Of a stretch of 33,623 bases of DNA, positions 3,694 through 19,109 are shown piece by piece; position 1 is the first letter of the stretch; each line of letters begins with the position of its first letter. A program made the position numbers and the translations under genes. Source of the stretch: an uncultured Armatimonadota bacterium (GTDB lineage: Bacteria; Armatimonadota; Fimbriimonadia; Fimbriimonadales; Fimbriimonadaceae). The stretch is taken from positions 1 to 33,623 of the forward strand of contig CAILEM010000116.1 of NCBI GenBank assembly GCA_903833215.1. Reading direction: 5' to 3'. The notes beneath the pieces were generated by a model. It was not told the DNA's origin, ran no database searches, and worked only from the letters and a program-made list of their open reading frames with translations.

Positions 3694-3735
3694 GATGTAT
3701 CAAGCGGATAGATCACCTGCTCTTAAAAAACGTAC

Positions 3736-4269
3736 ATGAGAGATACTTGCAGTCGATTTCGGTCCCGCCTGGCAGATGCTGCGGAAGGAAACACCAACGT
3801 TGAGCTGGCAGAACACTTAGGTCAGTGCACGGTGTGTTCGCAAATCATCAGCGAGTATAAAACCATTTTCGCCACCGCAAGTGGCCTTTGGGAGTCAGCA
3901 CCACTCGAATCGATTCAACTCGCCAAGGCACTCATGCCAGAGACAAGACGAGTTCTTTTTGCGAAACGGTTGAGCGTTGGGGCGGCAGCCACGGCGAGAG
4001 GTCCTCAAGAGGAATTCCAAGTTTTGGTCGGCGGTGAAGATATTTCCATGCGCCTCATGGCAACACCTACGACCGAAGGTTGGAGCATTCGCGGAAAAGT
4101 GCCCAATGCAGACTGGATTGTGTACGCCGAAAACGCGGTGCAAATGCCAGATGGACGATTTGAATTCACTGTCCCAACTTTGGAGGACTCCTCGTTTGAC
4201 GTTTTGGGCGAGGATACCATCCTTCAAGTTCCTGCCCTGTCTCAGTTAATGACCTATGACAGCGACTGA
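3736..4269 (+). CDS. Soluble zinc-finger anti-sigma-like regulator
   Basis: This 177-residue protein carries the HxxxCxxC zinc-binding signature of ZAS anti-sigma factors in EHLGQCTVCSQII (His27, Cys31, Cys34), preceded by a short helix. Such domains clamp ECF sigma factors. Unlike most members it has no hydrophobic segment long enough to cross a membrane, so it should be cytoplasmic. The rest (about 90-177) looks beta-rich (FQVLVGGEDISMRLMATPTTEGWSIRGKV) and belongs to no family I recognise. It could sense a ligand or be a substrate of the neighbouring protease. Its last 14 bases overlap the start of the CHAT gene, indicating coupled translation. Anti-sigma function is inferred from the motif and position after the sigma gene. 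Confidence 0.75.
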   Translation: MRDTCSRFRSRLADAAEGNTNVELAEHLGQCTVCSQIISEYKTIFATASGLWESAPLESIQLAKALMPETRRVLFAKRLSVGAAATARGPQEEFQVLVGGEDISMRLMATPTTEGWSIRGKVPNADWIVYAENAVQMPDGRFEFTVPTLEDSSFDVLGEDTILQVPALSQLMTYDSD

Positions 4270-6889
4270 ACTCGTTGAGCGAATCATTAGCGATCCCACT
4301 CAAGCCGCGAAGCTCTTGGCGAAATCTGATGCCAGGCCGGGGACCAGCCGAGCATTCTTCGACCACGTCTTTCATTTGTATGGAGAGGATCATGCCAGGT
4401 TGGCGAGTCTTCGTTCAGCGTCAAAGGTCATCGTTCGGTATGGCGACGATCCCGCATTTGGCTACCGCTCCCTCGGGATCGTCGAAAGGACAAACGGTCG
4501 ATGGGCGGCAAGCGCCCAGGCTTTCCTTAAGGCAGGTGAGTTGGCGTCAACTTCACGAGACAGATTGACCTTCCAAATCGGTGCCATTGACGGGCTCGCA
4601 CGAGCAGGTCAGATCGACGAGGCTCTCCTCCTTGGACACAAGCTGTCGACTGAGCTGAATGAGTCTGGTGCCCATGGCATCGCGGCACGAGCTCAATTGA
4701 ATCTAGGCTATGCTCTCATGGAGCAAGATCGCTACGCCGAGGCAATCTCAGAGTTAACTGATCTGCCAGAACAACTCAAGTCAGCGGGATTTGACCTTGA
4801 GGCAACCTCTAGTCGGCTTGCACTCTCCACAAGCCTACTCTTCGGCGGAGAAGCATCTGACGCAAGAAAGGAGGCGGAACTAGCAGTAAAAGAAGCGCAA
4901 GGACAAGGAAACCACCTGCTTGCCCGCATAGCCCGAGGAAACATCGCCTATGCCGATATTCTTTCTGGCGATATTGATAAAGCTGTCACCGCCCTTCTGG
5001 TCCTAAGAAAGGAGCACGAGGATGAACCCGTTGAAATGGCGCGTGTTCTTGAGTACCTCGGGGATGCCTACCTGGCGATGAATATGTTTTCTGAGGCAAC
5101 CGATGCCTTTCACGAAGCTGAAGACCTCAATGTCAACGTATCAGCACTACATAAAGTGCATCTGCGCTATGGGGCGGGACTCGCATTACTCGCCGCAGAT
5201 CGTCTACAGGAAGCCAATTCGCAATTTCGTTTCGCGTTTCAGCAATTCAAGAAACTGGGCAACTCACCTTGGGCAGTTGCTGCTGAAGCTGATCTTGCCT
5301 TTTCAGAAATATGCCTCGGCGCACCATCCGGTAAGCGTCGCTTGCGCAGATCCGTCCAAACCGCAAAACGCTCTACCAACGCCTATCAAAGGTGTCGGAT
5401 ACTTCTCCTATCTGCTGAAAACGGGGGACCGCCAGTAGATTTGGCGGAAGCGGGCAGATTGATCAAACAGCATGGCTTCTTTCGCTGGACATGGCGATTT
5501 CACGCGGAACAAGCTCGGCGGACAACCGGACGGAGTCGGCTATCCCATTTCCGAAAGATGTTTCGCGCAATTCTGGCCGACCAGGCGAGAACTTCATCGG
5601 TAGCGGCCAAGCTCAGGTTCCTATTTGACAAGCATAAAGCACTGCGAGCCTATTTGGATGAATTGCTGCTGACTCCCACTCCAACAAAGCTAAAAGAGGC
5701 AATTGAGGTGATCACTCAGTCTCGTGCAGTGGCGCTATTGGACGAGGTGCTTCTTAGCCGCCGATCCGGTCAATCTGAATCTGTCCTAATGGCCCTCACT
5801 GAACTGCGTGAACAGATCAACACCGGAGAGACACCCACCAACCACGGCAGCAGTCGTCGGGCCGCTCTCGCGAGCATCAATCTGGACCATTTGCAGAGGA
5901 TGTGGATCGAAGAAACCTATCTTGAGACTCCGAGCGGTCTGCAAAGGAAGGTCATGATCAGCGCACCAGATGACTCTCTACTGTATATCTCTGGGCCAGC
6001 TTCCTATCGAGTCTTGAGTAAATCTGGAGTCGTTGACCTTGCTGTCACTGAGGCCGATCTTGAATCGAGGCTTGAATGGCTAAGCTACGAAATCCTGGCT
6101 CCGATGGCTGATCCGAAAGCTGACCCAGCACCTGCTCTTAGTGCGTTGAGAGACATCGCCAAGGATCTCTTGCTTCCAATGGTGACCTCAAATCAGCAAC
6201 TGGGAATATGTCCCGAGGGTGGACTCTGGCGAGTGCCTTGGATTGCTTGCTTGGATACGCTAGGCATTGAAAAGGATTTAGACCTTCGGCTCCATCCCGC
6301 TTTTCAGGGCCGGCACGTGGAGATCGATCCTGCGAGGGCGATGGTGTGGATAGCAGATCACTCGGACCTGCCCCGCGCTAACGATGAGTTGCGAGCGTTC
6401 CAAGACCAATATCCAGATGCAGTTGTTTGCAGGTCTTCCAGCGAAGTTCGAGAAGCACTGACTCTTAGCCACGTCTCCATTCTGCACGTCATTTCACACG
6501 CCCGTTTCCGTGCTGGGCATCCAATGTTCTCCTCGCTTGACTTTACGGATGGCCCCGTCTTGGCGACTGAAATCGCAAGAAGTGGATTCTCCGCTCAAGT
6601 AGTGACGCTTTCCGGCTGTGACACAGCTAGAGTCTCCGACATCCATCGTTTTGAACCAGATGGTCTCGTAAGAGCATTTCTCGCCTGCGGCGCTGGCTAC
6701 GTGGTCGGAAGCGCATGGCCTCTGGATGATGAGGCGGCGATGCGTTTCTACTCAACGTTCTTCAAATCTCTCAGGTCCTCCGCAAATATCCACCAATCAC
6801 TACGCATTGCCCGCACTACTGTGCGACTATGGAAGGGACACCCCTATTTCTGGGCCTTCCCGCTTCTCTACGCAGGATATCGTTCATGA
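4256..6889 (+). CDS. TPR-CHAT caspase-like cysteine protease
   Basis: The 877-residue protein has an N-terminal two-thirds of helical tetratricopeptide-like repeats, for example ARAQLNLGYALMEQDRYAEAISEL and EYLGDAYLAMNMFSEATDAFHEAEDL. The C-terminal CHAT domain covers about residues 590-877. The catalytic pair of this caspase-related family is visible: His748 in LHVISHARF and Cys788 in LSGCDTA. The conserved tail GYVVGSAWPLDDEAAMRFYSTFF..SLRIAR is also present. There is no signal peptide, so it should act in the cytoplasm. TPR-CHAT proteins are proteases whose repeats sense a partner; the best-studied case is the type III-E CRISPR Craspase, which cleaves a sigma-inhibiting protein. Here the gene overlaps the zinc-finger gene by 14 bases and the subtilase by 4, making the anti-sigma-like protein or the subtilase obvious candidate partners. 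Substrate and trigger are unknown. Confidence 0.85.
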   Translation: MTATELVERIISDPTQAAKLLAKSDARPGTSRAFFDHVFHLYGEDHARLASLRSASKVIVRYGDDPAFGYRSLGIVERTNGRWAASAQAFLKAGELASTSRDRLTFQIGAIDGLARAGQIDEALLLGHKLSTELNESGAHGIAARAQLNLGYALMEQDRYAEAISELTDLPEQLKSAGFDLEATSSRLALSTSLLFGGEASDARKEAELAVKEAQGQGNHLLARIARGNIAYADILSGDIDKAVTALLVLRKEHEDEPVEMARVLEYLGDAYLAMNMFSEATDAFHEAEDLNVNVSALHKVHLRYGAGLALLAADRLQEANSQFRFAFQQFKKLGNSPWAVAAEADLAFSEICLGAPSGKRRLRRSVQTAKRSTNAYQRCRILLLSAENGGPPVDLAEAGRLIKQHGFFRWTWRFHAEQARRTTGRSRLSHFRKMFRAILADQARTSSVAAKLRFLFDKHKALRAYLDELLLTPTPTKLKEAIEVITQSRAVALLDEVLLSRRSGQSESVLMALTELREQINTGETPTNHGSSRRAALASINLDHLQRMWIEETYLETPSGLQRKVMISAPDDSLLYISGPASYRVLSKSGVVDLAVTEADLESRLEWLSYEILAPMADPKADPAPALSALRDIAKDLLLPMVTSNQQLGICPEGGLWRVPWIACLDTLGIEKDLDLRLHPAFQGRHVEIDPARAMVWIADHSDLPRANDELRAFQDQYPDAVVCRSSSEVREALTLSHVSILHVISHARFRAGHPMFSSLDFTDGPVLATEIARSGFSAQVVTLSGCDTARVSDIHRFEPDGLVRAFLACGAGYVVGSAWPLDDEAAMRFYSTFFKSLRSSANIHQSLRIARTTVRLWKGHPYFWAFPLLYAGYRS

Positions 6890-8094
6890 AAAAAATCGCC
6901 TCTGGTCTTTCGTTCTTAGTTGCAGCACTGACGGTGAGCGTCGCCGACGCTCAGACGAATATCATTTGCCGCCTGAATCCTGGTGTCTCGCCCACAACGA
7001 TCGCAACGCGCTATTCGCTGACTCTGTTGGACTACACGCCAAACGCGCCCTTCGCTATGTTTAGCGCCACGGACGACCAAACGATCAGCAATATGCAGAA
7101 TGATCCTGCAATCGTATGGCTCGAAGACGACTGCAGTGTAGGAGCGCCAGAAGACGAATCGAAAGGAAAACCAACGAAAGGCGGTGGCCTACCAGCAGTG
7201 GGTGATCGAACCGGGCTACAAAGAATTAATGGTCGTTTGCTTTCTCAAATCGACTGGAATGCGAAAGTCGCAAATTCAGCTGGAAGAGTCGTGCGAGTTG
7301 CGATTTTGGATACAGGATTGGCACCAAAGCAGAAGGCACTGTGGGCCAAGGTCGACCTAAGCATGAATGCAGTCGAACCCAATAGTCCTGCTTACGATAT
7401 TCCCCACAATATGGATTCCAACGGGAACGGCATCAAAGATCAGGCGGTGGGCCACGGGACGATGGTTGCTGGCATCATCGACCAGATATCGCCGAAGTCA
7501 CGGTTTGTGATTGCGCGGGTTGCGGACTCAGACGGTCTTGCTTCAGGTTGGAGCGTGATCAAAGGCTTGGCATTCGCCGTTACCTCAAATGCCGAAGTCG
7601 CCAATGTGTCGCTCGGCACACTACTAGAAGTACCCGCGCTTGGCGACGTCGTCGATTGGTGTCTGGCAAACAACCTTCTCATCGTCGCTCCCATCGGAAA
7701 CAACGGAGCCGAAGCGGCCTGCTACCCCAGCCGGTTTGAAAGTGTTGTCTGTGTTGGAGGCCTGGACGTCCTCAACCACAAGGCCAGTTTCAGCAACTTC
7801 AATCAAGTTTGCACGGTTTCTGCTCCCGCTATTGGCTTTGCGAGCCAATTCTGGGATGGTCACTTGGCCTACTGGTCGGGAACATCATTCGCATCTCCAG
7901 TCGTTGCTGCCGTGGTTGCCGAGTCACTGCGACACACATCGCCGTCCGCTCCCGATACTATTAAGGCGGCTCTCCAGACATCAGGTCCATCGCTTGACCG
8001 ACTCAATCCGAAGTACAAACAGAAGCTCGGAGTCTTGATCGACTTTTCCAGGACAATCAAGAAGGTCGGGAGTCCAGGCAACCCCGGTCCGTAG
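6886..8094 (+). CDS. Secreted S8 subtilisin-like serine protease
   Basis: I place the start at ATG 6886, which overlaps the CHAT stop as ATGA and gives a proper signal peptide (MKKIASGLSFLVAALTVSVADA). The 402-residue product then has an I9-like propeptide (about 23-90), a linker, and an S8 catalytic domain. The triad is Asp142 (ILDTG), His190 (GHGTMVAG) and Ser334 (SGTSFASP), with the oxyanion Asn272 in PIGNNG. All catalytic residues are intact, so it should mature by autoprocessing in the periplasm or outside the cell. It is the last gene of the sigma/anti-sigma/CHAT cassette and is followed by a hairpin at 8127-8154. Its export separates it physically from the CHAT protease, so a direct cascade would need one of them to relocate or cells to lyse. 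The role is otherwise open. Confidence 0.9.
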   Translation: MKKIASGLSFLVAALTVSVADAQTNIICRLNPGVSPTTIATRYSLTLLDYTPNAPFAMFSATDDQTISNMQNDPAIVWLEDDCSVGAPEDESKGKPTKGGGLPAVGDRTGLQRINGRLLSQIDWNAKVANSAGRVVRVAILDTGLAPKQKALWAKVDLSMNAVEPNSPAYDIPHNMDSNGNGIKDQAVGHGTMVAGIIDQISPKSRFVIARVADSDGLASGWSVIKGLAFAVTSNAEVANVSLGTLLEVPALGDVVDWCLANNLLIVAPIGNNGAEAACYPSRFESVVCVGGLDVLNHKASFSNFNQVCTVSAPAIGFASQFWDGHLAYWSGTSFASPVVAAVVAESLRHTSPSAPDTIKAALQTSGPSLDRLNPKYKQKLGVLIDFSRTIKKVGSPGNPGP

Positions 8095-8205: not shown

Positions 8206-9750
8206 CTATTTCACGATCACGACTCCGGCCATTCCCTGTCCCATCGTCGTGCCGTCTCCAGCAGCCCCGTGGAATAGGCAGTGGTAAAAGAACTTAGTGC
8301 CAGATTTAGCATTCGCAGGCAACGTCCACACAAACGACTGTCCGGCAACGATTGTTCCCGAAGTCATAGATGGGTTGGAGAGGTCCGGCGTGACCGTGTG
8401 AGGCATGCCGGATACGTTTGTCCAAACAACAGTGGTTCCCGCCGTTACGGTCAGGGTCTGAGGTGAATATTGGAAACCACTGGTCATCTGAATGGAGGCC
8501 AAATTACTTTGTGGGCTCACGGTCAAAGTAGCAGTCGCAGAAATCCCGTTTGGATCCACTCCCTTGATCGTTGCGGTAGTCGTGGCACTTGGGCTCGTTG
8601 TTGCGATGTTGAACGTTGCCGTGGTCGCTCCTGAATTGACTGTGACGACGGTTGGAACGTTGACGAATGTCTGGGCACTCGATAGGGTGATAGCCAAACC
8701 TGCGGCAGGTGCTGGACCGGAGAGTTTGATCGTTCCCGTAGCCGCTGCTGGAGCAGTGACAGAGGTTGGCGCAATCGTGATCGTCGAGATACGCACGGTA
8801 GACACTGTGACCGACAGACTTGCCATCGCCATATAGCCAGCCGCATCCATCGCCATTAAGTTCGCAGTTCCCCCATTTGAAGACGCGTCGGTCGTGATAG
8901 CGAACGTCCCCGTCTTCGCGCCAGCCTTGACGGTGACCTTGGCGGGCACGGTGACAAACTGCTGATCAGAGGACAAATCCACATCAAAACCACCCTTGGG
9001 TGCAGCGGAGGTCAAGGTGACCACCCCCGAAGAGGCAACTCCGGCACCTACTTGTTTTGGGGTCAGGGTCAAGGAGGCCACTCGGACGGCAGGAACTTGA
9101 ACCATTAACTTCGCGGTTGCCGAGTAAGTGTTTGCGTCGATGCCCTTAATAGTGGCTGAAGTGTTCTTCGCAATCGAACTCCCACTTATCGTAAACGTCG
9201 CCGTTTTTGCACCCGCTTTCACGCTCACCGAAGCGGGCAACGAGACGAACTGCTCGTCGGATGACAGGTTGACAACAAAACCATTACCCGTTGCGTCTGC
9301 CGACAGGGTCACCGTACCTTTAGCTGTAGCCGGAAGCTCTATCGCGGCCGGAGTCACTGCCAAATTGATCAATCGAATGGGCGGAGGGTTTACAACAAGG
9401 ACGCTGTGCGCCGACTTTTTCGATGGATCTGTACCCGTAATCGTCGTTCTTGCTGTCAGCGCAACCTTATGAATCGTTACGGTGAATGTGGCATTGGCTG
9501 CTCCCGCCTCTATCGTTAGGGAGGATGGAACAGATGCTGTGGCAGCGACACTGGATCTCAAATTGATCTTCAATCCGCCAGAAGGAGCAACCTTTGAAAG
9601 CGTGACAGTTCCCGTTGCCACCCCACCCACTGCGGCAGGATTCGGTGAGATAGCAAGACTTTTGATGGTCTGTCCCATGCCCACAACGGGCAAGGCCAGT
9701 AGGGCCAGTAGGGCCACGAACATGTTTTTGGAGCGAAAGTCTGTGTTCAT
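8206..9750 (-). CDS. Secreted Ig-like repeat protein with C-terminal plastocyanin-type cupredoxin domain
   Basis: I start at ATG 9750, not the upstream TTG at 9795, because it gives a clean signal peptide (MNTDFRSKNMFVALLALLALP..GMGQ). The 514-residue product has four tandem Ig-like modules of about 90 residues. Each has a strand pattern such as VNLSSDEQFVSLPASVSVKAG followed by TATF. The last 85 residues are a blue-copper fold with type 1 copper ligands His451 (GMPHTVTPD), Cys491 and His494 (YHCLFHG), and Met507 (GQGMAGVVIV). It should be exported and could carry single electrons or bind copper at the cell surface, with the repeats as a stalk. The His-to-Met interval (13 residues) is longer than in plastocyanin or amicyanin, which may change the copper site. 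It lies about 300 bases downstream of the electron-transfer operon on the same strand, but in a separate unit. Confidence 0.82.
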   Translation of the reverse strand: MNTDFRSKNMFVALLALLALPVVGMGQTIKSLAISPNPAAVGGVATGTVTLSKVAPSGGLKINLRSSVAATASVPSSLTIEAGAANATFTVTIHKVALTARTTITGTDPSKKSAHSVLVVNPPPIRLINLAVTPAAIELPATAKGTVTLSADATGNGFVVNLSSDEQFVSLPASVSVKAGAKTATFTISGSSIAKNTSATIKGIDANTYSATAKLMVQVPAVRVASLTLTPKQVGAGVASSGVVTLTSAAPKGGFDVDLSSDQQFVTVPAKVTVKAGAKTGTFAITTDASSNGGTANLMAMDAAGYMAMASLSVTVSTVRISTITIAPTSVTAPAAATGTIKLSGPAPAAGLAITLSSAQTFVNVPTVVTVNSGATTATFNIATTSPSATTTATIKGVDPNGISATATLTVSPQSNLASIQMTSGFQYSPQTLTVTAGTTVVWTNVSGMPHTVTPDLSNPSMTSGTIVAGQSFVWTLPANAKSGTKFFYHCLFHGAAGDGTTMGQGMAGVVIVK

Positions 9751-10050
9751 ATTGATAATTGAGCTGGGAGGAAGACAGCTGAGTAGCAAAGTCAAGCAGA
9801 GCCAATACCAAGACGTAACACAGATAGATTTATTCCGAAATCACGCGACTGGTCATTTGACAAACCATATTACGACAACCGCCAGTAAATTCTGGATAGG
9901 TGCGGCCAACAATGCGGACATTCGGAAGCGGCGTGCCTCCCTCGTATCTCGGACGGCTTCCGCACTGGAGGCTATAAATGTCACGGCCCCAATCGGTGTC
10001 CAAGAGAACACTTCAGGGGCCGCGACACCTACGTTAATCGATGATCTAGC
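9751..10050. other. 300-base intergenic region
   Basis: No coding sequence is supported on either strand; an open plus-strand frame crossing it is a shadow of the two flanking minus-strand genes. The only structure I see is CGGAAGC (9923-9929) and GCTTCCG (9956-9962), a 7-bp inverted repeat with a 26-base loop. It could be a weak terminator for the octahaem gene. The promoter of the Ig-cupredoxin gene should lie here, but I find no convincing hexamers. Confidence 0.4.
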
Positions 10051-13000
10051 TCATTTTTGCTGCTTCATGAGGAAGTCGATGATCGCTGCATACTGCTCGT
10101 CCGGCTTTTGGAAGTTGGGCATCTGGGTACCAGGACTGAATGCTTGCGGATCCCTGAGGAAGCGCAGTAACCAGTCCTTCTTCAGACGCACTGGAACTAA
10201 GCCAAGGTCTGGGCCAAGTTTCTTAGTCGCCGCACCACCAGAAACTCCCTGCTTGCCCGCCAAAGGATGGCAACTTTGACACTTGAGATCTTCAAAGTAC
10301 TTCGCACCCGATTGGGCGAGGGGGAATACCTTTTGATCGGGCGGTGTGTATTCGTAAGGCGCTGGCTGGTTCGCCAGTGCCATCAGATATTCCGTCAACG
10401 TTGTCGCTTCCTTGTCTGACAAGTGGTAGTGAGGCATTCGTGCGTCTTGCCACCACCGGATTCGGGCCGGTTGCTTTAAGAACTCGAACAACCAACCAGG
10501 ACGGACCATTTCGCCTTCCCGTGTCAGTTCAGGACCAACCTTCCCCCCTTGACCGGCGATACGATGGCAGGCGAAGCAGTCGTGCTGCTCAAAGATCTTC
10601 CTTCCCGCTAAGAGTGAGGTTCCTTGTTCACGAAGGTCCTTGGTGTACTCTGGGGCCAATTCCTGCGACGAGAGCGACATCAGATACACCGCGATCGTTT
10701 TAGCATCATCCTTTTCGAGACCAAATTTGGGCATCTTGCCCTTGAATTTCTCTGAATCGAAAGACCGTGGGTCCGTAATCTTTGTGACGATGTAGTCGTA
10801 TAAATCCTTCTTAACCGTCTTCGCATTTCCGAATTCAAGAATATCAGCACTTTTATCTCCGATACTCGTCAACTCCGGCGCTGAGATCTTTTCGAAGCCC
10901 TTGATGTCGTGACACGCTGCACATCCTCGTTCCGCGATTAGCTGTGCCCCTCGATCTCGGGCATCGCGGTCTCGAAGGTTCGGCATGATGTCGATCTTTT
11001 GAGCTTCCTTTTCACCCACCGACATCAAGTAATCCCCGATGAGCATGCATTGATCTTTGCTCAAGTTAAAAACAGGCATCTTACTATTCGGGAAGTAAGC
11101 CTTTGGATTTGCGATCCAACCGTACAGCCAGTCTGAATTAACTTTGGTGCGTATATTTGTCAGTTCGGGCGCAAACGAAGCTCCTTCTCCACGGATGGTG
11201 TGACAACCCAAGCAACCTAAATTAACAGTCAGGCGCTTTCCGAGCGCCAATCGTTGAGCATTTGGTATCGCCGTATTCGGCAGTGCTGCTGAATCAGAAG
11301 CTCCCTTCTGGGTCAGAAGGAACGATGCGATCGACATCGCCTGATCCTTAGCAAGACCAAGATTTGGCATTCGCGCATCAAGCGAGTGGGATTGGGGATT
11401 TCTGAGCCAACCGACTAGCCAAGTCGGTTGAAGCTTTTCGCTGACACGATCAAGATCGGGGCCCGCTTTGGGCATCGCCGACTGAATCTCTTTTACGTTC
11501 TGTCCCAGACTCCCCAGCGACTGAAGGGACTCAACCTTGTGGCAGCCCAGGCAGCCGGAATTCTTGAACAGTTTAGCGCCAGCCAAATAGGTTGCCTCAC
11601 CGGAAAGCTGACGTGTTTCTCCATGACATTTGCCACAGGAACTTTGAACTTGATCGCCAACAAGAAGCGGTTTGCCTTTCCCAATGATTCCGCCATGGGC
11701 TTCATTTTTGGTCAGAGCATTACCCCACCCGCCGTGGCAACTCACGCAGCCAAATCGTTCGGAGGGGTGATACTTTAGAAGTTCTGGCGAGTGAGTTCGG
11801 AATGGCTCTGCCGTCGTTTCAAAACCCGTCTGCTCGACCGCACGGTGGCACGTCGTACAGCGATCAATCGCACCAAGGCGATCGACAAAAGTCTGTTCAA
11901 CCTCAGGAGCTCCATTCAGGTTTCTTGTCAATCGGCCTTCAATCAAGCGGAGATCTCGCTGGAGATCCTCTACGTGCGACTGTAGGCTAGCGCTTGATTG
12001 CCGTAGGCGCTTAAGCTCATCGGCACCGGTCGCATTCACCTGATTCTTTGAAGTCAGTTCAGCGAGAGTTTTGACATCTGCAGCCCATTTGGCAACTTCA
12101 GCAGCCTTCTTCACGTTCGCCTTCGACACCTCCAAATCCACATTCAGCTTTGCTACGTTTTCGGTTTGCTTTGCATCTTTGAGGTGAGCGTCGGATACTT
12201 GGTGCCGGAGTGCTTCGCCTTCAGGAAGCCCAATGACTTCCTTGGTATGAACTCGCTGTGCGATAAGCAGATCTCGATCCGCAGCCTCAAGTCGAGACTT
12301 CGCACCGTCGATGTCTGGCTTGAAGTCGGCTTCCTCGTAGGCGGAGGAAGAGGAGGCACTGACTGCCGTGGTGGCAACTCCCTTGGCCGTGCTTACTGCT
12401 GGCTTGGCGACATCCTTGAACTCCTTATCTAGCTCATCCAATTCTGAATTCGCACCCTTTGCGGAAGTGGGTGTTTTGGAGGGGACGGTGGGCTGAGTCG
12501 CTGAGGTCTTTGCTGGAGTATCTTTGAATTCCTTGTCAAGCTCTGCCAAGTCCGCATCATTCGGCTTGCCCGCAGGCTTTGATGTACTGGGCTTTGTGGT
12601 CTTCGTACCACTGTCGCCAAACTCCTTATCGAGGTCGGCAAGCTCCTTGTCGGATGCTTTAGCTGCTGGCTTTGCCTGTGTGGATTTCGGTTCAGGCACG
12701 GGAGCGGCACCCTTCCCAGCGTTACCTGAGAACTCCTTGTCTAGGTCATCAAGTTCATTCTTGGTTGGCTTGACAGGAGCTGCTCCTGGCTTTGCAGGTG
12801 CAGGTGATGCCGCAGCTTCAGGCGATCCACCCTCTTCGGAGTTACCTGCGTTGAGCCGAACTTCCATCTCCTCCAGATCTGCCTCGGTCGTTTCAAGCTC
12901 TGCTGAAGCGACGTCCACCTTTGCTTTTACATTCAGATACGCCTTCTTGGCCTTATCGTAGTCTTCTTGGTACGTGGGGTGGCTTATCTGTTGCTGAAGT

Positions 13001-13197
13001 TCTGCCTTCTTCTGGATTAAAATCCCACGCTCAATTTGGGAAAATTTTAACTGATAGGCTAACCACTCAGGATGGGTGTCTTTGAACATAGAAATGCCCA
13101 TCACGATGAGCACCACAACGCTCATTAAGAAGAAAAGAAAGTTCATGCGGAGGCCGGTTCGGACCTCCCTCTTATGTCGCCCTACTGCCACGGCCAT
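10051..13197 (-). CDS. Membrane-anchored octahaem c-type cytochrome of a Rieske/cytochrome b complex
   Basis: I chose ATG 13197 because GGAGGT lies 4 bases upstream; a GTG at 13209 is the alternative. The 1048-residue product has one N-terminal membrane span (about 20-45: LRMNFLFFLMSVVVLIVMG), then a charged coiled-coil region. This is followed by four spaced copies of a LxxLDKEF motif (about 150-275) and another coiled coil. Eight CxxCH haem sites start near residue 445: CTTCH, CVSCH, CGKCH, CLGCH, CLGCH, CAACH, CFACH and CQSCH. The first three form a compact trihaem unit. The last five are class I cytochrome c modules about 100 residues apart, each with a downstream Met ligand (ARMPN, SKMPV, GKMPK, ARMPH, TQMPN). 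It overlaps the subunit IV-like gene by 16 bases and takes the place of cytochrome c1 or f, so it should accept electrons from the Rieske protein in the periplasm. Confidence 0.88.
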   Translation of the reverse strand: MAVAVGRHKREVRTGLRMNFLFFLMSVVVLIVMGISMFKDTHPEWLAYQLKFSQIERGILIQKKAELQQQISHPTYQEDYDKAKKAYLNVKAKVDVASAELETTEADLEEMEVRLNAGNSEEGGSPEAAASPAPAKPGAAPVKPTKNELDDLDKEFSGNAGKGAAPVPEPKSTQAKPAAKASDKELADLDKEFGDSGTKTTKPSTSKPAGKPNDADLAELDKEFKDTPAKTSATQPTVPSKTPTSAKGANSELDELDKEFKDVAKPAVSTAKGVATTAVSASSSSAYEEADFKPDIDGAKSRLEAADRDLLIAQRVHTKEVIGLPEGEALRHQVSDAHLKDAKQTENVAKLNVDLEVSKANVKKAAEVAKWAADVKTLAELTSKNQVNATGADELKRLRQSSASLQSHVEDLQRDLRLIEGRLTRNLNGAPEVEQTFVDRLGAIDRCTTCHRAVEQTGFETTAEPFRTHSPELLKYHPSERFGCVSCHGGWGNALTKNEAHGGIIGKGKPLLVGDQVQSSCGKCHGETRQLSGEATYLAGAKLFKNSGCLGCHKVESLQSLGSLGQNVKEIQSAMPKAGPDLDRVSEKLQPTWLVGWLRNPQSHSLDARMPNLGLAKDQAMSIASFLLTQKGASDSAALPNTAIPNAQRLALGKRLTVNLGCLGCHTIRGEGASFAPELTNIRTKVNSDWLYGWIANPKAYFPNSKMPVFNLSKDQCMLIGDYLMSVGEKEAQKIDIMPNLRDRDARDRGAQLIAERGCAACHDIKGFEKISAPELTSIGDKSADILEFGNAKTVKKDLYDYIVTKITDPRSFDSEKFKGKMPKFGLEKDDAKTIAVYLMSLSSQELAPEYTKDLREQGTSLLAGRKIFEQHDCFACHRIAGQGGKVGPELTREGEMVRPGWLFEFLKQPARIRWWQDARMPHYHLSDKEATTLTEYLMALANQPAPYEYTPPDQKVFPLAQSGAKYFEDLKCQSCHPLAGKQGVSGGAATKKLGPDLGLVPVRLKKDWLLRFLRDPQAFSPGTQMPNFQKPDEQYAAIIDFLMKQQK

Positions 13198-13877
13198 ACC
13201 CACCTCCACTCCGGACCTCGGAAGAACTGGCCAATCATAACCAGAACGAAAACGATTCCAACAAACACCAAGAACAGGCGCTTGCGTAGCACCTCGACGC
13301 GTGCTTCATCATCGAAGTAAGGATTCAATAACAGCTTTCCTATCCCGAATGCACTGATGATGAGCATGATGAATGTCGGGAAACCGAGGCTTCGCGTTGC
13401 ATCCGCAAACCCCGGCGCGACGGCGTGGATGCCAGCCCAAACGATTCCATCTAGGAGCGGTAACAGGATCGCCGATAGCAAGAACATAATCGGCATCAGC
13501 GACATACGGCCCCGCCAGTATGGAATGGTACACATCACCATAACGAGTAGCCCGGGAATGAAAACACCCGAAATAAAGGGGGGGGCATAGTGAAGCATTT
13601 CTTGAAGCGATAAGAAATACCAGGGCGCTTTCGCTGGGTTTGGTGTCTTGCTGGCATTCGCGAGCTCTTCAAGAGGGGCATCGAAAAGGAACGAGACCAC
13701 AAGTAGGGTAGCGAGCATCAATCCAAAAGCTAAGAACTCTCGTGCGACGAGATGTGGATAGCTAGATATCCGTTCGACATCTGTGTCCGGGATATTTCCC
13801 GGGTGACCTTCAATGAACCCGAGAAGACCGTATTCTTTGTCTTTTTGGGCGTTGCCTGAGGAACCTGGATTCATCAT
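13182..13877 (-). CDS. Cytochrome b C-terminal subunit (subunit IV/PetD-like)
   Basis: This 231-residue membrane protein has about four hydrophobic helices and the menaquinol-type signature PNPAKAPWYFLSLQEMLHY, which forms part of the quinol-oxidation (Qo) site. The sequence is APWYF where bc1 and b6f complexes have PEWY, so the canonical glutamate is missing and the downstream Glu of QEML may substitute. The C-terminus holds the FFRGPEW motif seen in split cytochrome b subunits. It overlaps the cytochrome b6-like gene through ATGATG/TGA and is preceded by a strong GGAGGT. The second Met (13874) fits the ribosome site slightly better. Together with the upstream gene it makes a b6f-like split cytochrome b. 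Confidence 0.88.
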   Translation of the reverse strand: MMNPGSSGNAQKDKEYGLLGFIEGHPGNIPDTDVERISSYPHLVAREFLAFGLMLATLLVVSFLFDAPLEELANASKTPNPAKAPWYFLSLQEMLHYAPPFISGVFIPGLLVMVMCTIPYWRGRMSLMPIMFLLSAILLPLLDGIVWAGIHAVAPGFADATRSLGFPTFIMLIISAFGIGKLLLNPYFDDEARVEVLRKRLFLVFVGIVFVLVMIGQFFRGPEWRWVWPWQ

Positions 13878-14719
13878 TTACCTCCCGAAAAGCCGTCTTT
13901 TCGAACTCGCCAGAAGTGAAACACCATGAACAACGAGATCACCATCGGCAAGACAACGACGTGAAGGACAAAGAACCGAATGAGGGTTGCCTGATCGACG
14001 TTCGGTCCACCAAGGAGGACGTATCGAACCTTTGGGCCAATCAGTGGAATCGAACCCGCCATGTTTGTGCCAACCGTAATCGCCCAGAAGGCAAGCTGAT
14101 CCCAAGGTAACAAATACCCGGTGAAGCTGAGCATCATGGTCAAACAAAGCAAGATGACTCCGATGACCCAGTTGAGTTGTCGAGGTGCCTTATAGGCCTT
14201 TTGTAGGAACACGCGGAGCATGTGCAAAGCGACGATGATCACCATCGCGTGTGCCGCCCATCGATGCATGTTCCTAAGGATCTTTCCCAACGAAACAACG
14301 TGCTGCAGATCGACCATGTCTTTGTAGGCGTGGTCGGTGGCGGGCACGTAGTAAAACATTTCCATGATGCCAGTGGCAGCGAGAACCATGAACAACCCAC
14401 AGGCGAGACCGCCAAGACCGTAAGTCACGCTGAATTTCAACGTCTCCTTACGAATAGACGCGGGATGCAGGTGAATCCAAAAACTCGTGATTGCGATTTC
14501 AGAGTTGTCCTTGGGAGTCTGCGGATAGGGACGCGCAAAGACGGATCGCCAAGGCAGCGAGGTCACGATGTCCGACTTCAACGCACTTCGAAAGCCTCCC
14601 GAGAAAACGGAGTGCTTCGTGCCGCTATCGGAGGAATGCAGATACTTTGAAGCGGCGGTGGATCGAACCCAGTTCCTGAGTCGCCGAATGAGCCTTCTTT
14701 CTTCAGGCTGTTCACTCAT
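13874..14719 (-). CDS. Cytochrome b6-like subunit of a menaquinol:cytochrome c oxidoreductase
   Basis: This 281-residue protein has about 85 hydrophilic N-terminal residues, then four membrane helices binding two b haems. Helix B shows NMHRWAAHAMVIIVALHML with His pairs 14 apart. Helix D shows LHVVVLPMVISLFMVFHFW with His pairs 15 apart, which is the b6-type spacing. FTGYLLPWDQ and the RKDGFSG end also match b6/QcrB. The position where b6f and Bacillus QcrB carry the Cys that binds haem c_i covalently reads Gly here (VTYGLGGL), so a covalent third haem is unlikely at that site. ATG 14719 overlaps the Rieske stop as ATGA and has AGGAGAGG upstream. It should oxidise menaquinol and move electrons across the membrane with the Rieske and subunit IV-like partners. 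Confidence 0.92.
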   Translation of the reverse strand: MSEQPEERRLIRRLRNWVRSTAASKYLHSSDSGTKHSVFSGGFRSALKSDIVTSLPWRSVFARPYPQTPKDNSEIAITSFWIHLHPASIRKETLKFSVTYGLGGLACGLFMVLAATGIMEMFYYVPATDHAYKDMVDLQHVVSLGKILRNMHRWAAHAMVIIVALHMLRVFLQKAYKAPRQLNWVIGVILLCLTMMLSFTGYLLPWDQLAFWAITVGTNMAGSIPLIGPKVRYVLLGGPNVDQATLIRFFVLHVVVLPMVISLFMVFHFWRVRKDGFSGGK

Positions 14720-15189
14720 ACTCTGTACCTCTCCTTTGGTGAAATGAGAGTGCGTTTGTCTACCACCAATTCACCTAAATTACTGACCGAGATTTCGTAC
14801 GCTTCAAGTGGCTTTGGGGCGGGACCAGCATAGTTCGTGCCATCGGGTTTGAATCGACTTCCGTGGCACGGGCAGAAAAACCCGGGACGGTCGGGATCTG
14901 TTCGAATCGTACAGCCGAGGTGTGTACAGACAGCAGACATCGCCGCATAGCTGTTGCCTTCTCGAACGATAAAGACCTGCTGTTCGGGTAGGTAGGTCGC
15001 TTGCTTATCAGGAAAATCTTTAGGCATCCCAACCTTAAACCGCTGGTTTTTGCCATACAGAACGTTCGGGACGACAAACCTAAATGCCCCAAGAACAATT
15101 AACCCCATCGACGTCAAAAATGCGAAAACACCACCAACAAAAAACCGCCGTGATTGGACTTCATCCGAATTTGGCTCACCGTGCGACAT
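14716..15189 (-). CDS. Rieske [2Fe-2S] iron-sulfur protein
   Basis: I start at ATG 15189 (MSHGEPNSDE), 7 bases after a GGAGGAAGG ribosome site; upstream in-frame codons are coding for the preceding gene. The 157-residue product has one N-terminal membrane anchor (about 15-42: FFVGGVFAFLTSMGLIVLGAF) and a Rieske domain. The cluster ligands are Cys88 and His90 in CTHLGC and Cys106 and His109 in CPCHGS. Cys93 and Cys108 would form the usual disulfide. It takes the first electron from menaquinol at the Qo site and passes it to the c-type haems. The gene overlaps the FAD oxidoreductase upstream by 14 bases and cytochrome b downstream by 4, so the complex is tightly co-translated. Confidence 0.94.
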   Translation of the reverse strand: MSHGEPNSDEVQSRRFFVGGVFAFLTSMGLIVLGAFRFVVPNVLYGKNQRFKVGMPKDFPDKQATYLPEQQVFIVREGNSYAAMSAVCTHLGCTIRTDPDRPGFFCPCHGSRFKPDGTNYAGPAPKPLEAYEISVSNLGELVVDKRTLISPKERYRV

Positions 15190-17032
15190 ACCCTTCCTCC
15201 TCGTACTTCCCCATCCACATCGCCCCAACGGGACACCTCTCGACGCACAAACCGCATCGCGTGCATTTCTCCTCGTCTTTGAGCATTCCAAACCACTTGT
15301 TAGCGAAAGCCCCATCTTGCTCGGACATCACCTCAGGTGACATTCCGTGCCTCACCTGTGCCAATTCGGTGAGCTTCGAGTCGTCTTCGATTCGGGATAC
15401 CGGCACGATCTTGAGGCAACCGAAGGGACAAACATCCACGCAGCCGCCGCAAAGCACGCACTTGTCCCAATCCACCATCGGATTGCGATTACATTTGAGG
15501 CATCGCGATGCCTCAACCATCGCCTGCTCGCGCGTAAAGCCCGATTCAACTTCAGTGACCCCAGAGCGCCGATCAACGGAAATCGTTGGGACTTCCCCAC
15601 GCTCAATACGATCGTATTGAGCAGGCATGTGATGCATCGGTAACGGCGTAAGTCGAGGCTTTTCCTCAACCTCGCCGTCCGCAGCACTACCCATCAGATA
15701 TTCATGAATCGCAATAGCGGCACGCCGAGCATCGGCAATCGCTTCTATCGCAGTTCTTGCTCCAAATGCCACATCTCCGCCGACATAAACGCCGGGAAGG
15801 TTTGTCGCCATCGTCTTGCTTGATGCCTTGACGAACCCAGAAGGTGTTCGATCCAATTGATTTTCATCACCCAAGAAACTCAGGTCGGGTTGCTGTCCGA
15901 TCGCAAGAAGAATGGTGTCGCACTCAAGCACTTCCTCAGATCCCTCTTGGAATTTGGGAGCAAACCGCTTGTTTTCATCGAAAACGGAAAGACATTTGTT
16001 TGTCTCAAGGCCAACACACTTGCCGTCAACTGTAACCACGCGCGTTGGACCTCGGGAGTTATGGATTTCGATGCCTTCTCGAACCGTCTCGTTGATCTCA
16101 TCGTCGTGGGCTGGCATCTCCTCATAAGATTCCAGACAAACGAGGTGCACTTCGCCCGCGCCAAGTCTCATTGCCGAACGCGCGATATCCATCGAAGGCT
16201 CGTATCGCATTTCTTGGTCGGGTACAAGAATTCCAGCTTCGCGAGCTGCCGTCCGTGCGACGTCAACGGCAACGTTGCCGCCGCCAATGACAACGACTCT
16301 CTTGCCCACCGGTACTTTGTAGCCCAGGCTTACGTTAAGAAGGAAGTCGATACCATTGATAACCCCGTCAGCATCGACACCTTTGATCGGAAGCGCCCTG
16401 CCCTTTTGGGCACCTACCGCAAGAAAAATAGCTTTGAAGTCGCGTCGGATATCGCTGAACTTGACGTCCTCGCCGACCCGAGTCTTCATTCGCAACTCAA
16501 CTCCAACGGAGAGCAGGCCATCGATCTCTGCCTTTATCAAGTCTCGAGGCAGTCGATATTCTGGAACGCCATGGTACAACATCCCGCCAAGTTGCTCCGA
16601 ACCTTCGAACAGAGTGACGTCGTATCCGAGCAATGTTAAATCGTGGGCGGCGGTAATTCCGGCGGGTCCTGCGCCTATCACTGCCACCTTCTTGTTGCGC
16701 TTTGCGCGCCTCGGAATTCCTCCACCCCGGCGCATATCGCCACCAGAAAAATCTGCAGCCGATCTTTTAAGCGCCCTGATGGATAGCGGCAAGTCATGGG
16801 CACCGCGACGGCATGCTGTTTCGCAAGGGTGCCCACAGATGCGAGCACAGACATTTACAAAGGGGTTTGGCCTACGAGCAAGTTCGTAGGCCGTGTCAAA
16901 ATCCCCAACTGAGATTGCCTCAATGTATCCTTGAGCGTTGGTGTGGACAGGACAAGCCGCTCGGCAGCTAACGTTACGTCGCAACCAATCGGCATCGACT
17001 ATCTTCGCTTTGAGCTTTGATAAGACTGACAT
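15176..17032 (-). CDS. GltD-like FAD/NAD(P)H oxidoreductase with N- and C-terminal iron-sulfur domains
   Basis: ATG 17032 is preceded by GAGGAG at 6-base spacing; earlier starts overlap the upstream gene. The 618-residue protein begins with a Fer4_20-type domain (Cys23, Cys27, Cys62, Cys66, Cys70, Cys74). A glutamate-synthase-small-subunit fold follows, with FAD motif GAGPAG (120-125) and an NAD(P)H motif VVVIGGGNVAVDVA. The C-terminus has a CLKC pair followed by two [4Fe-4S] ferredoxin motifs, CVLCGGCVDVCP and CTRCGLCVERCP. It has no membrane span and should sit on the cytoplasmic face. Its place inside a Rieske/cytochrome b operon suggests it links NAD(P)H to the quinone pool through the complex. 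Bc-like complexes with a NAD(P) oxidoreductase subunit have been described in anammox planctomycetes (from memory). It could run toward NAD(P)H formation or oxidation. Confidence 0.85.
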   Translation of the reverse strand: MSVLSKLKAKIVDADWLRRNVSCRAACPVHTNAQGYIEAISVGDFDTAYELARRPNPFVNVCARICGHPCETACRRGAHDLPLSIRALKRSAADFSGGDMRRGGGIPRRAKRNKKVAVIGAGPAGITAAHDLTLLGYDVTLFEGSEQLGGMLYHGVPEYRLPRDLIKAEIDGLLSVGVELRMKTRVGEDVKFSDIRRDFKAIFLAVGAQKGRALPIKGVDADGVINGIDFLLNVSLGYKVPVGKRVVVIGGGNVAVDVARTAAREAGILVPDQEMRYEPSMDIARSAMRLGAGEVHLVCLESYEEMPAHDDEINETVREGIEIHNSRGPTRVVTVDGKCVGLETNKCLSVFDENKRFAPKFQEGSEEVLECDTILLAIGQQPDLSFLGDENQLDRTPSGFVKASSKTMATNLPGVYVGGDVAFGARTAIEAIADARRAAIAIHEYLMGSAADGEVEEKPRLTPLPMHHMPAQYDRIERGEVPTISVDRRSGVTEVESGFTREQAMVEASRCLKCNRNPMVDWDKCVLCGGCVDVCPFGCLKIVPVSRIEDDSKLTELAQVRHGMSPEVMSEQDGAFANKWFGMLKDEEKCTRCGLCVERCPVGAMWMGKYEEEGYVAR

Positions 17033-17051
17033 TGAGGCTCCTCGATTCATC

Positions 17052-18419
17052 CTAGAACCCGAAGTTGAACAAGACACCCAGCATGTTCTGCTTTGCGCTT
17101 GTCAGGTCCTGCGTGTACTCCACACCGAGCCAGAAGTTGGTCCGTAAGTAGTAAGTGTAGTTCGCCGTGAGCGCGTCAGTGATCGTTGGCGTCAGCGAAG
17201 TCAAGTTGTCGCCATGGACTTTGTCATAGCGAAGGAAGCACATACTTCGGGCAGTCAGGGCATAGTTGAGTTCGAGGAAGTATCCATTCCAAGAAACCTG
17301 TTTGCCGTCGTCATTGGGATTGTCGGCAACGCCAGTGATGTAGCCACCCAAGAGATTGAACGGCTTGACTTTCATGCCTTTGCTTTTCTCGATCGGCTTG
17401 CCAAAGTAGTAGCTGAAGTCCGGGCCACCCATGCGATATCGATTCGCAACGCCCGTCCCGACATTCATCAAGCCGCTGTATCCAGCGATACCGATGAAGG
17501 AATCACCATTGACGTACATATTGATTCGACCGCTGTAGTCAGAAGGATTGGGTGCCTGAGAAGGGCTAAGGTTCGTACTGTTGTACATCCCAACTTCCCA
17601 AAGGAAACCCTTGAGCTGATCCATCGGATCGGCTTCCTCATGCTCCACCATGTCGTCATCGCCTTTCTTCTGCATCCGAAGAGGCCGAATAGGCTGGTTT
17701 TCAGCCTTCTTGGCCTTACCCTCTTCTCCACCCGTCTGCTTTCCGTGAATGAGGTCTGGAGTAACCGCAGAGCCAATGAGGCCATAAATGCGGGCACCCA
17801 TATGCTGAGCGCTAAGCACATAGCCCTGACCAACGCCTGGTGAGGAAAGTCCGAGATCTTGAATTCCATAGCCGCTGCGTCCATAGAGATCGTGCTCCGA
17901 AACGCCGTGCTCAAGAAGATCGAGATTCCCAACGTTGAAGAAAACATTCTGATTGCCAAGGTGTGCGGCGATCAAAGAGACCTTGCCTATGTCGGTCACG
18001 CCGCCCTGGTTTGACAGTTCGCCGAAGAACCCGAGGTCTGGAGCGATGGTGTCCGAAGCAAAAAGATGAAAAACATTGGAACTGGCTAAGTTGACAGCAG
18101 TCTTATTTGCTGGAGTCTTGTCCGCAGTGAGGTTGTTCTCAACCAAGAAGCCGATGGGTGGCTGTTCTATGACGAGTAAGTTTGGATCTTCGGGATAAAC
18201 GATCTTCCCGACTTCCTTGTCTCCTGGTTGCTGATAACCGTGAAGCTGAAAGTTCTTTCCGAAAGTGTTCAGCTTCGGCACAGCCATGTGGCACCGAGAA
18301 CAGGTCGTTTTATACTTCCTGGCGAAATAAGGAATCGAGTGTGACTTCGTGGGAATACCCGTCACGATGGCGACGAAAAGAACAGGCAGCACCCATGCTG
18401 CCTTTTTGATCATAGACAT
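17052..18419 (-). CDS. Outer-membrane monohaem cytochrome-porin fusion
   Basis: I start at ATG 18419 because GAGGT lies 5 bases upstream; a TTG at 18437 is less likely. The 455-residue product has a signal peptide (about 1-28) and a single haem site Cys40-x2-Cys43-His44 in the conserved context IPYFARKYKTTCSRCH. About 380 residues of alternating-hydrophobicity strands follow, ending in LFNFGF, a C-terminal Phe typical of BamA-assembled beta-barrels. A charged insert near residues 245-285 (GDDDMVEHEEADPMD) is probably a surface loop. The architecture recalls Cyc2, the fused cytochrome-porin of iron oxidisers, although close homology to Cyc2 is not claimed. It may pass electrons through the outer membrane. 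It sits 19 bases before the FAD oxidoreductase and 72 bases after the cupredoxin, within one operon. Confidence 0.75.
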   Translation of the reverse strand: MSMIKKAAWVLPVLFVAIVTGIPTKSHSIPYFARKYKTTCSRCHMAVPKLNTFGKNFQLHGYQQPGDKEVGKIVYPEDPNLLVIEQPPIGFLVENNLTADKTPANKTAVNLASSNVFHLFASDTIAPDLGFFGELSNQGGVTDIGKVSLIAAHLGNQNVFFNVGNLDLLEHGVSEHDLYGRSGYGIQDLGLSSPGVGQGYVLSAQHMGARIYGLIGSAVTPDLIHGKQTGGEEGKAKKAENQPIRPLRMQKKGDDDMVEHEEADPMDQLKGFLWEVGMYNSTNLSPSQAPNPSDYSGRINMYVNGDSFIGIAGYSGLMNVGTGVANRYRMGGPDFSYYFGKPIEKSKGMKVKPFNLLGGYITGVADNPNDDGKQVSWNGYFLELNYALTARSMCFLRYDKVHGDNLTSLTPTITDALTANYTYYLRTNFWLGVEYTQDLTSAKQNMLGVLFNFGF

Positions 18420-18491: not shown

Positions 18492-19109
18492 TTATTGGGA
18501 AACTTTGAAGAGGGCCTTAGCGCGAGCACCGGCAGTCACTGTGACCGACTGTGTCGATGGGCTCGAATCTTCGGACCAAACTTTGAGCGTGTAAGTGCCA
18601 GCCGGTACATTTCCGATTTGGAATTGGCCCTTTTCATTCGTCACCGCAAAATAAGGGTTTGGCAAAACCATAATGTAACCCTTCATGTTGGCGTGAATAT
18701 GGCATTTGATCGGAATTAATCCAACCTTGTCGAAAGTCAGTTCCGAGGTGTCTCCCTTTTTAGACTGGCTAACGTTGAACATCTTCACACGTGAGCTAGA
18801 AAACACGTTGTGCAGGAATGGATCCGAGTTATTGAAGCGAACCTTGCCACCCTTCACAATCGCAATGACGTGCGGAAGAAACTCTTTCTCTTTCTGATCC
18901 ACGACCACCGGTTCTGCAGGAGGGGCAAACGTACCAGTTGCATCCGTAATGCTAACCACTGCACCGTGGACCCGCTTTGAACCCATCTCGACGATTCCGA
19001 TAATCTCGCCGTTGGCCTTTTTGTGACCACCAGTAAAAGCAAAAGCACCACCAACAACGATAAGGGTGGCCATAACACTCAGACTCGAAATCTTCATTGC
19101 AATTTTCAT
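18492..19109 (-). CDS. Periplasmic blue-copper (amicyanin-type) cupredoxin
   Basis: The start ATG 19109 follows GGAGGT at 8 bases. The 205-residue product has a signal peptide (about 1-25) and a cupredoxin domain with type 1 copper ligands His100 (DPFLHNVF), Cys136, His139 and Met142 (PIKCHIHANM). The Cys-x2-His-x2-Met spacing is that of amicyanin. The last 50 residues (GQFQIGNVPAGTYTLKVW) look like a carboxypeptidase-regulatory beta sandwich, also seen in methylamine-utilisation-type proteins. It should be a soluble one-electron carrier. As first gene of the Rieske/cytochrome b operon it could shuttle electrons between the octahaem cytochrome and the outer-membrane cytochrome-porin. Confidence 0.8.
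   Translation of the reverse strand: MKIAMKISSLSVMATLIVVGGAFAFTGGHKKANGEIIGIVEMGSKRVHGAVVSITDATGTFAPPAEPVVVDQKEKEFLPHVIAIVKGGKVRFNNSDPFLHNVFSSSRVKMFNVSQSKKGDTSELTFDKVGLIPIKCHIHANMKGYIMVLPNPYFAVTNEKGQFQIGNVPAGTYTLKVWSEDSSPSTQSVTVTAGARAKALFKVSQ

Follow-up and report, generated by a model that had tools for sequence, protein, structure and literature searches.

The protein encoded at positions 17052–18419 on the minus strand of a 33,623-nucleotide stretch of DNA from an uncultured Armatimonadota bacterium (hereafter the window, meaning the whole stretch analysed) is a real Cyc2-family cytochrome-porin, ordinary in its architecture and notable for its operon. Seven genes of one strand, closely spaced and in places overlapping, encode a cupredoxin, the Cyc2-type protein, an NAD(P) flavoprotein, a Rieske protein, a b6-type cytochrome, a subunit IV and an octahaem cytochrome c. 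The chief finding is this Cyc2-cupredoxin-Rieske/b-NAD(P) operon, no report of such a combination having been found in the open-access literature covered, including the available text of PMC7029218, PMC5566968, PMC10732223, PMC12016527, PMC9040806, PMC5877670, PMC8302410, PMC10654088 and PMC12442345. Cyc2 homologues serve as markers of iron oxidation, yet only in a few lineages is it certain what they do, and few of their periplasmic partners have been identified.

Architecture of the Cyc2-type protein

The open reading frame runs on the minus strand from an ATG at 18419 to a stop at 17052 (455 codons) and, together with the structural model, indicates a 455-aa monohaem cytochrome fused to a 16-strand porin. 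A first-pass annotation made from the letters alone had described a signal peptide, a single N-terminal CSRCH, a terminal Phe and a Cyc2 architecture, and all of these were borne out. Residues 4–22 form the sole hydrophobic N-terminal segment and are followed by SIPYFARKYKTTCSRCHMAVPKLNTFG; the signal peptide probably spans residues 1–28 (18336–18419, minus strand), with cleavage predicted before IPYFARKY. The stretch SIPYFARKY (18312–18338, minus strand), upstream of the haem site, corresponds to the Cyc2 signature AXPXFAR[Q/K][T/Y] (PMC8406198) with its first A replaced by S, this residue being A in all four close relatives. CSRCH (residues 40–44; 18288–18302, minus strand) is the only CXXCH in the protein, the motif being present in 55/55 homologues, and is followed by PKL, which places a PXL element four residues past CXXCH (CSRCHMAVPKL), while the C-terminus reads NFGF. 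Cyc2 proteins are described as having at least 365 residues and a haem-binding site (PMC8406198, available text), and the window protein has 455 aa and one CXXCH. Similarity to a Cyc2 by blastp, at a threshold of 1e-5 or better, was found with a Chlorobium protein (L145) counted as Cyc2 on taxon and motif (pairwise comparison of the two: 27% over 175 columns, E 1e-16), chiefly in the haem domain; cyc2 has been named in Chlorobium of ferruginous lakes, with reference to genes other than L145's own (PMC8302410, available text).

No Pfam or NCBIfam family matched the window protein, phmmer gave no match to it in the PDB, a scan of genome contigs with this protein alone gave no match, and a search of plasmids for Cyc2 references returned a weak Methylocystis match only. 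Homologues were collected by a pattern scan of named genomes, which matched at least 593 stretches, of which 570 were confirmed and the best 80 kept. The best four among the matches listed are full-length Armatimonadota proteins of 45–64% identity, one of them titled Fimbriimonas sp. These four, together with 12 positions (CXXCH among them) that are invariant across 55 homologues, place the reading frame beyond chance. The stretch [ASG][IV]P[AVY]FARKY is invariant because the homologues were selected by that pattern, which retrieved 50 of the 54 others, the close four included. A chance CXXCH inside a porin was ruled out, since the motif and plug are conserved and the gene is linked to electron carriers.

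The long beta-rich body seen at first pass resolves into 16 strands in an AlphaFold2 model (mean pLDDT 81.2, pTM 0.80) built from 55 sequences, namely the window protein and 54 of the 82 ORFs from the best 80 loci; a non-barrel fold, the outcome named at first pass as counting against a cytochrome-porin, was not found. The modelled strands lie at residues 89–102, 116–126, 129–138, 141–151, 159–167, 205–215, 271–279, 294–303, 307–320, 324–339, 354–365, 375–389, 392–404, 415–426, 429–438 and 445–454, the short bridges 44–46 and 343–351 being left out of the count, and the haem domain is modelled as helices at 31–59, ahead of strand 1. Structural re-alignment of 998 Foldseek chains ranked OprP first (2o4v; Z 25.1, rmsd 2.9, 294 aligned) and OprO second (4rjw; Z 24.8, rmsd 3.0, 301 aligned), the remaining 16-strand porins following at Z 22–23, whereas by Foldseek E-value general porins such as OmpU lead and both OprP and OprO fall outside the first 50. 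OprP and OprO are the templates published for Cyc2 (PMC8406198, available text). A control model of the Chlorobium Cyc2-like protein gave 16 strands and the same helix order at a weaker pLDDT of 68.8, with OprO first (Z 22.4) and OprP sixth (Z 22.1), tied within 1 Z with other porins. As modelled, the window protein is thus a 16-strand outer-membrane-type barrel like OprP and OprO.

In these respects it resembles Cyc2-PV1 of Mariprofundus, Cyc2 of Acidithiobacillus and Cyt572 of Leptospirillum, with which it has in common a signal peptide, a single CXXCH preceded by XPXFAR[Q/K][T/Y], PXL, 16 strands, an OprP/OprO-like fold and a length above 365 aa. It differs from known Cyc2 proteins in the A-to-S change of the motif, a periplasmic insert of about 55 residues, a clade-specific H60, and His and acidic residues in loop 3, and its clade is separate from the Chlorobium proteins in the Cyc2 tree. 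The insert (about residues 216–271; 17610–17774, minus strand) lies by strand order between strands 6 and 7, where the confidence of the barrel model is at its lowest; the Chlorobium control has about 4 residues at this turn. It had been described at first pass as acidic and His-rich, a description that did not hold, as the composition of residues 220–271 (12 D/E, 9 K/R and only 2 His of 52) makes it mixed-charge. Since both barrel ends are predicted to be periplasmic, strand alternation in the model puts this turn on the periplasmic side and not at the cell surface. By modelled strand order, residues 168–204 (17808–17918, minus strand), which connect strands 5 and 6, occupy the constriction-loop position of classical porins, where the corresponding loop folds into the pore. 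Among them, E170, H171 and H176 are invariant across the five-member clade and form a candidate path for iron (or another metal).

Within residues 26–90, no invariant Met or His beyond the CXXCH His was found among the 55 homologues, so that a sixth haem ligand is not readable from conservation; position 60 is His in 6/55 homologues, including all five of the clade, and Asn in 44/55. The missing invariant distal ligand would suit a redox-decorated porin in which the haem serves as a sensor or gate without a role in transport and membership of the operon is unrelated. Such a protein is considered very improbable, given the repeated same-strand linkage to genes for electron carriers and the biochemistry of Cyc2 in other lineages.

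The operon and its Rieske/b complex

The first gene of the operon (18492–19109, minus strand) encodes a cupredoxin with a C-terminal carboxypeptidase-regulatory-like domain (Pfam), in which H100 and C-H-I-H-A-N-M form a type-1 copper arrangement. Downstream of Cyc2 lies a GltD/NfnA-like NAD(P) flavoprotein with FeS clusters (15176–17077, minus strand; Pyr_redox_2, Fer4_20 and Fer4), which likely starts at the ATG at 17032, as judged from the translation, and whose best solved relatives are NfnABC (9bov/9bp5), then 9n5u. It is followed by a Rieske [2Fe-2S] protein with one predicted TM helix (14716–15315, minus strand; Pfam), whose start is likely the ATG at 15189 and whose best solved relatives are 9rk4 (E 2e-27, 99 bits) and 9rk3 (E 4e-21, 79 bits), the next reaching 66 bits. 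Cytochrome b profiles and four hydrophobic peaks identify a b6-type four-helix, ExtP-like cytochrome b (13874–14719, minus strand), and an NCBIfam match below cut-off and five hydrophobic peaks identify a subunit-IV-like, ExtQ-like membrane protein with five predicted TM helices (13182–13877, minus strand). The last gene (10051–13209, minus strand) encodes an octahaem cytochrome c of 1052 aa, with profile matches, eight CXXCH, an N-terminal TM segment and a long region ahead of the haems. No oxidase genes and no HAO-like octahaem protein were recognised in the cluster.

Counterparts are found in Acidithiobacillus, where Cyc2, a cupredoxin, the putatively NADH-related subunit SdrA and a bc complex, products of the rus and pet operons, serve iron oxidation and its uphill branch; there, two operons carry bc1 and rusticyanin, whereas in the window the genes form a single cluster, the complex is b6-type, the flavoprotein is NfnA-like and oxidase genes are missing. 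In the published description of the Acidithiobacillus uphill branch, electrons go by way of rusticyanin, bc1 and a c4 cytochrome, and SdrA is encoded in the pet operon (PMC10654088, available text).

A closer relative of the complex itself is found in Kuenenia, where the two complexes Kustd1480–1485 and Kuste4569–4574 comprise a b6-like b subunit of four helices, a subunit IV of five, an NAD(P) oxidoreductase with FeS clusters and a hexa- or octahaem c. According to the available text of PMC12954380, these Rieske/b complexes are proposed to make NAD(P)H, that of Kustd1480–1485 having no proposed partner reaction; 9rk4 and 9rk3 are Kuste4569 and Kustd1480, and 9bp5 is the named match for Kuste4570. 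The corresponding features were all found in the window: subunits of four and five predicted helices, a Rieske protein, an FAD/FeS NAD(P) oxidoreductase and an octahaem c. Judged by sequence, the adjacent complex is predicted to be of the Kuenenia type, joining Rieske/b subunits to an NAD(P) oxidoreductase and having an octahaem c in the place of cytochrome f, a more specific assignment than the respiratory chain named at first pass. The likeness extends over b, subunit IV, Rieske, oxidoreductase and a large multihaem c, the Rieske protein being nearest by sequence, whereas the window cluster differs in being preceded by a cupredoxin and Cyc2, and no HAO-like octahaem protein was recognised in it.

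Another comparison is with the extHIJKLMNOPQS cluster of Geobacter, which has a Rieske protein, a b-type cytochrome, a small membrane protein, a multihaem c and a porin in common with the window, while its porin and multihaem proteins are separate and Cyc2 does not figure in it (PMC5877670, available text). The window proteins fall below the NCBIfam cut-offs for ExtP (275.3 against 290 bits), ExtQ (54.8 against 150) and ExtS (88.2 against 100), and the operon is therefore not filed under the Ext selenite/tellurite family.

Beside the operon, directly after the octahaem c gene, lies a gene (8206–9795, minus strand) for a 529-aa exported protein of repeat segments with a C-terminal plastocyanin-like domain; near this position, a long membrane protein resembling CcmF by eye is encoded in three relatives. 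Further on, a sigma-70 region 2 protein, an 877-aa TPR-CHAT protein and a subtilase are encoded near one another (3115–8094, plus strand), and the relative L094 also has a subtilase match beyond its cluster.

Host, distribution and genetic linkage

In the GTDB-type taxonomy used, the host is a member of Fimbriimonas, because three of the four close relatives, all with the same cluster, belong to the genus of the window genome (6.2 Mb), whose 16S is 93% identical to that of a congener (G123). Misbinning of the contig was ruled out by base composition, by this 16S match and by the presence of the cluster in relatives of the genus. In the composition test, which sampled 20 contigs, the three shorter pieces of the window gave mean correlations of 0.885–0.914 and 20-kb stretches gave 0.92–0.94 among themselves, so that the window resembles the large contigs; three short contigs, which read N, gave no value. 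One 3.4-kb contig of the bin (C37, L032) carries a second 16S, 72–75% identical to those of the host and its relatives, and is a foreign contig.

The Cyc2 gene is patchy, occurring in 5/85 Fimbriimonadaceae genomes and in 4/20 of the genus (own genome counted), and all five Fimbriimonadaceae genomes that have it carry the gene cluster. Gene order is the same in the four close relatives, the available stretch of one (L096) starting at Cyc2 with its cupredoxin beyond view. Among 201 genomes of the phylum, matches at 1e-5 were obtained in 25 (own included), mostly to the haem domain only. Elsewhere in Armatimonadota, two more distant genomes (loci L053 and L055) encode a divergent Cyc2-like protein whose gene shares a run with those for the b cytochrome and the same flavoprotein; in a third (L065), Cyc2 is accompanied by the cupredoxin and the flavoprotein, with no b cytochrome nearby. 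The run at L053 (G033:C128, 5314–17948), read by eye, goes from the Cyc2-like gene through a molybdopterin/FeS/NrfD-like set to the Rieske/b-NAD(P) module and thus holds two quinone complexes. Cyc2 of cluster 3 has been described in the hot-spring Armatimonadota class HRBIN16 (PMC9671151, available text), and the present data widen its range in the phylum from there to Fimbriimonadaceae.

The proximity of Cyc2 to respiratory genes, pointed out at first pass, proved to be a real physical link that recurs in the relatives and in other phyla. Profiles seeded with the window and as many as ten loci were run over the best 80 loci of at least 570; they located 57 cupredoxin ORFs in the 405 kb lying no more than 3 kb from Cyc2 and 0 in the 614 kb farther out, and 57/57 lay on the Cyc2 strand. 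In this same set of the best 80 of at least 570, cupredoxins occur near Cyc2 in 55/80 loci (46/71 non-seed loci) and, among the 41 with 3 kb on both flanks, in 29 and not in 12. The full copper pattern is present in 53/57 cupredoxins; three of the other four have C-x2-H-x2-M and one neither. A b cytochrome (>250 bits) follows Cyc2 on the same strand within 3.5 kb in 14 of these best 80 loci of at least 570, four of the 14 lying outside the profile seeds, and a flavoprotein is near Cyc2 in 10 of the 80; Rieske/b genes are absent from most loci, in some for want of flanking sequence. Going by record titles and labels in the tree, the 14 Rieske/b loci are assigned to Armatimonadota, Bacteroidota, Ignavibacteriota, Acidobacteriota, Eiseniibacteriota, Myxococcota/other Deltaproteobacteria and Chloroflexota, and since the loci are mostly metagenome bins, single phylum labels may err.

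Two other arrangements were seen in this survey. A record titled Patescibacteria (L163, 10001–11287) holds Cyc2 and a cupredoxin, an unexpected finding that may reflect a binning error. Nitrospira loci, for example L120 of the nitrite oxidiser Ca. Nitrospira defluvii (9908–12869), have a Cyc2-like gene, a dihaem c and a cupredoxin in a row, a partner set unlike that of the window.

A quick Cyc2 tree of 92 rows was built from the window protein, 11 Armatimonadota proteins and 80 of the 82 ORFs, the remaining two being truncated. The Fimbriimonadaceae clade is distant in it from the Chlorobium proteins, which are the sole members from a known iron-oxidiser lineage in a set that lacks references for clusters 2 and 3. 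On this tree, 12 changes of the Rieske/b label are required, at least 9 of them forced by starred branches, and on a b-cytochrome tree of 38 rows 7, at least 4 of them forced. These counts are to be read with the caution that several unlabelled loci end at contig edges, that L140 is unlabelled because its contig ends past the Rieske gene, and that branches are long. Single inheritance of the whole unit was rejected on the label changes in both trees, which do not support one origin of the Cyc2–Rieske/b association.

Proposed electron route

From the computed architecture, Cyc2 features, gene linkage and kind of complex, we infer the redox partners, the substrate and the direction of a route in which electrons from extracellular Fe(II) would pass via Cyc2 and the cupredoxin into the Rieske/b complex and on to an oxidase or an NAD(P)H branch, a reading given somewhat better than an even chance. 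The N-terminal monohaem c domain of the outer-membrane 16-strand porin would plug its periplasmic mouth, and a donor that is small and soluble, Fe(II) being the likeliest, would enter the barrel and reduce the haem. From the haem, the electron would move on to the periplasmic type-1 copper protein of the same operon and from this to the octahaem c of the inner-membrane Rieske/cytochrome b complex. One branch would then run downhill to the haem-copper oxidase of the genome, in which one COX1 was found. In the other, the complex would work in reverse, electrons passing through the quinone site and the b haems to the cytoplasmic FeS flavoprotein to form NAD(P)H.

Donors other than iron, whether another soluble reductant (for example Mn(II), nitrite or a small organic redox carrier) or a partner cell, have to be weighed here, since Cyc2 homologues are candidates for Mn(II) oxidation in Ca. 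Manganitrophaceae and are present in nitrifying Nitrospira, and the authors of the Cyc2 study call function outside cluster 1 uncertain (PMC8406198, available text). A non-iron donor is nevertheless thought unlikely, the literature covered having yielded no homologue with a demonstrated non-iron substrate. For the genus itself, no report of iron oxidation in Fimbriimonas was found in the available text of the literature covered.

The anatomy of the system allows outward flow equally. Electrons from menaquinol would then be bifurcated, one reducing NAD(P)+ through the flavoprotein and the other leaving through the octahaem c, the cupredoxin and Cyc2 to an extracellular acceptor, for instance Mn oxides or chelated Fe(III). 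For the Kuenenia complexes, bifurcation in the forward sense, coupled to the reduction of NAD(P)+, has been proposed, the acceptor driving Kustd1480–1485 not being named in the available text (PMC12954380), and the b-type subunits resemble ExtP and ExtQ of the Geobacter ext cluster, which is expressed on Fe(III) and tied to selenite and tellurite reduction (PMC5877670, available text). The resemblance nonetheless stays below the Ext family cut-offs given above, the Cyc2 proteins that have been tested oxidise iron (PMC8406198, available text), and a Rieske potential above +300 mV would demand strong extracellular oxidants; outward flow is considered rather improbable. Cyc2 of M. ferrooxydans has a potential of +208 mV (PMC8406198, available text) and the Kuenenia Rieske protein one above +300 mV (PMC12954380, available text), and by analogy with these relatives inward flow would be slightly favoured.

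If electrons do flow inward from Fe(II), the use of the NAD(P)H calls for comment. A search of the genome found no RuBisCO large chain, so any NAD(P)H made would go into mixotrophy or some other pathway. Genes for sugar uptake and glycoside hydrolases abound in the window; together with the lack of RuBisCO this gives the organism a heterotrophic look, and it is not evident why it should need NAD(P)H derived from iron.

A bolder extension is that the operon encodes an entire uphill pathway, from Cyc2 through the cupredoxin and the octahaem c to a reversed Kuenenia-type complex and NAD(P)H without complex I, which some seven phyla would repeatedly have assembled or inherited, among them Armatimonadota that are heterotrophic in other respects. 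This is put forward tentatively, as a possibility that is more doubtful than not. If true, reducing power would be gained from dissolved iron, and a partner reaction would be named for the orphan Kustd1480–1485 type of complex. Because the recurring cluster names both the partners and the route, how Cyc2 bacteria make NAD(P)H would become testable with few purified proteins.
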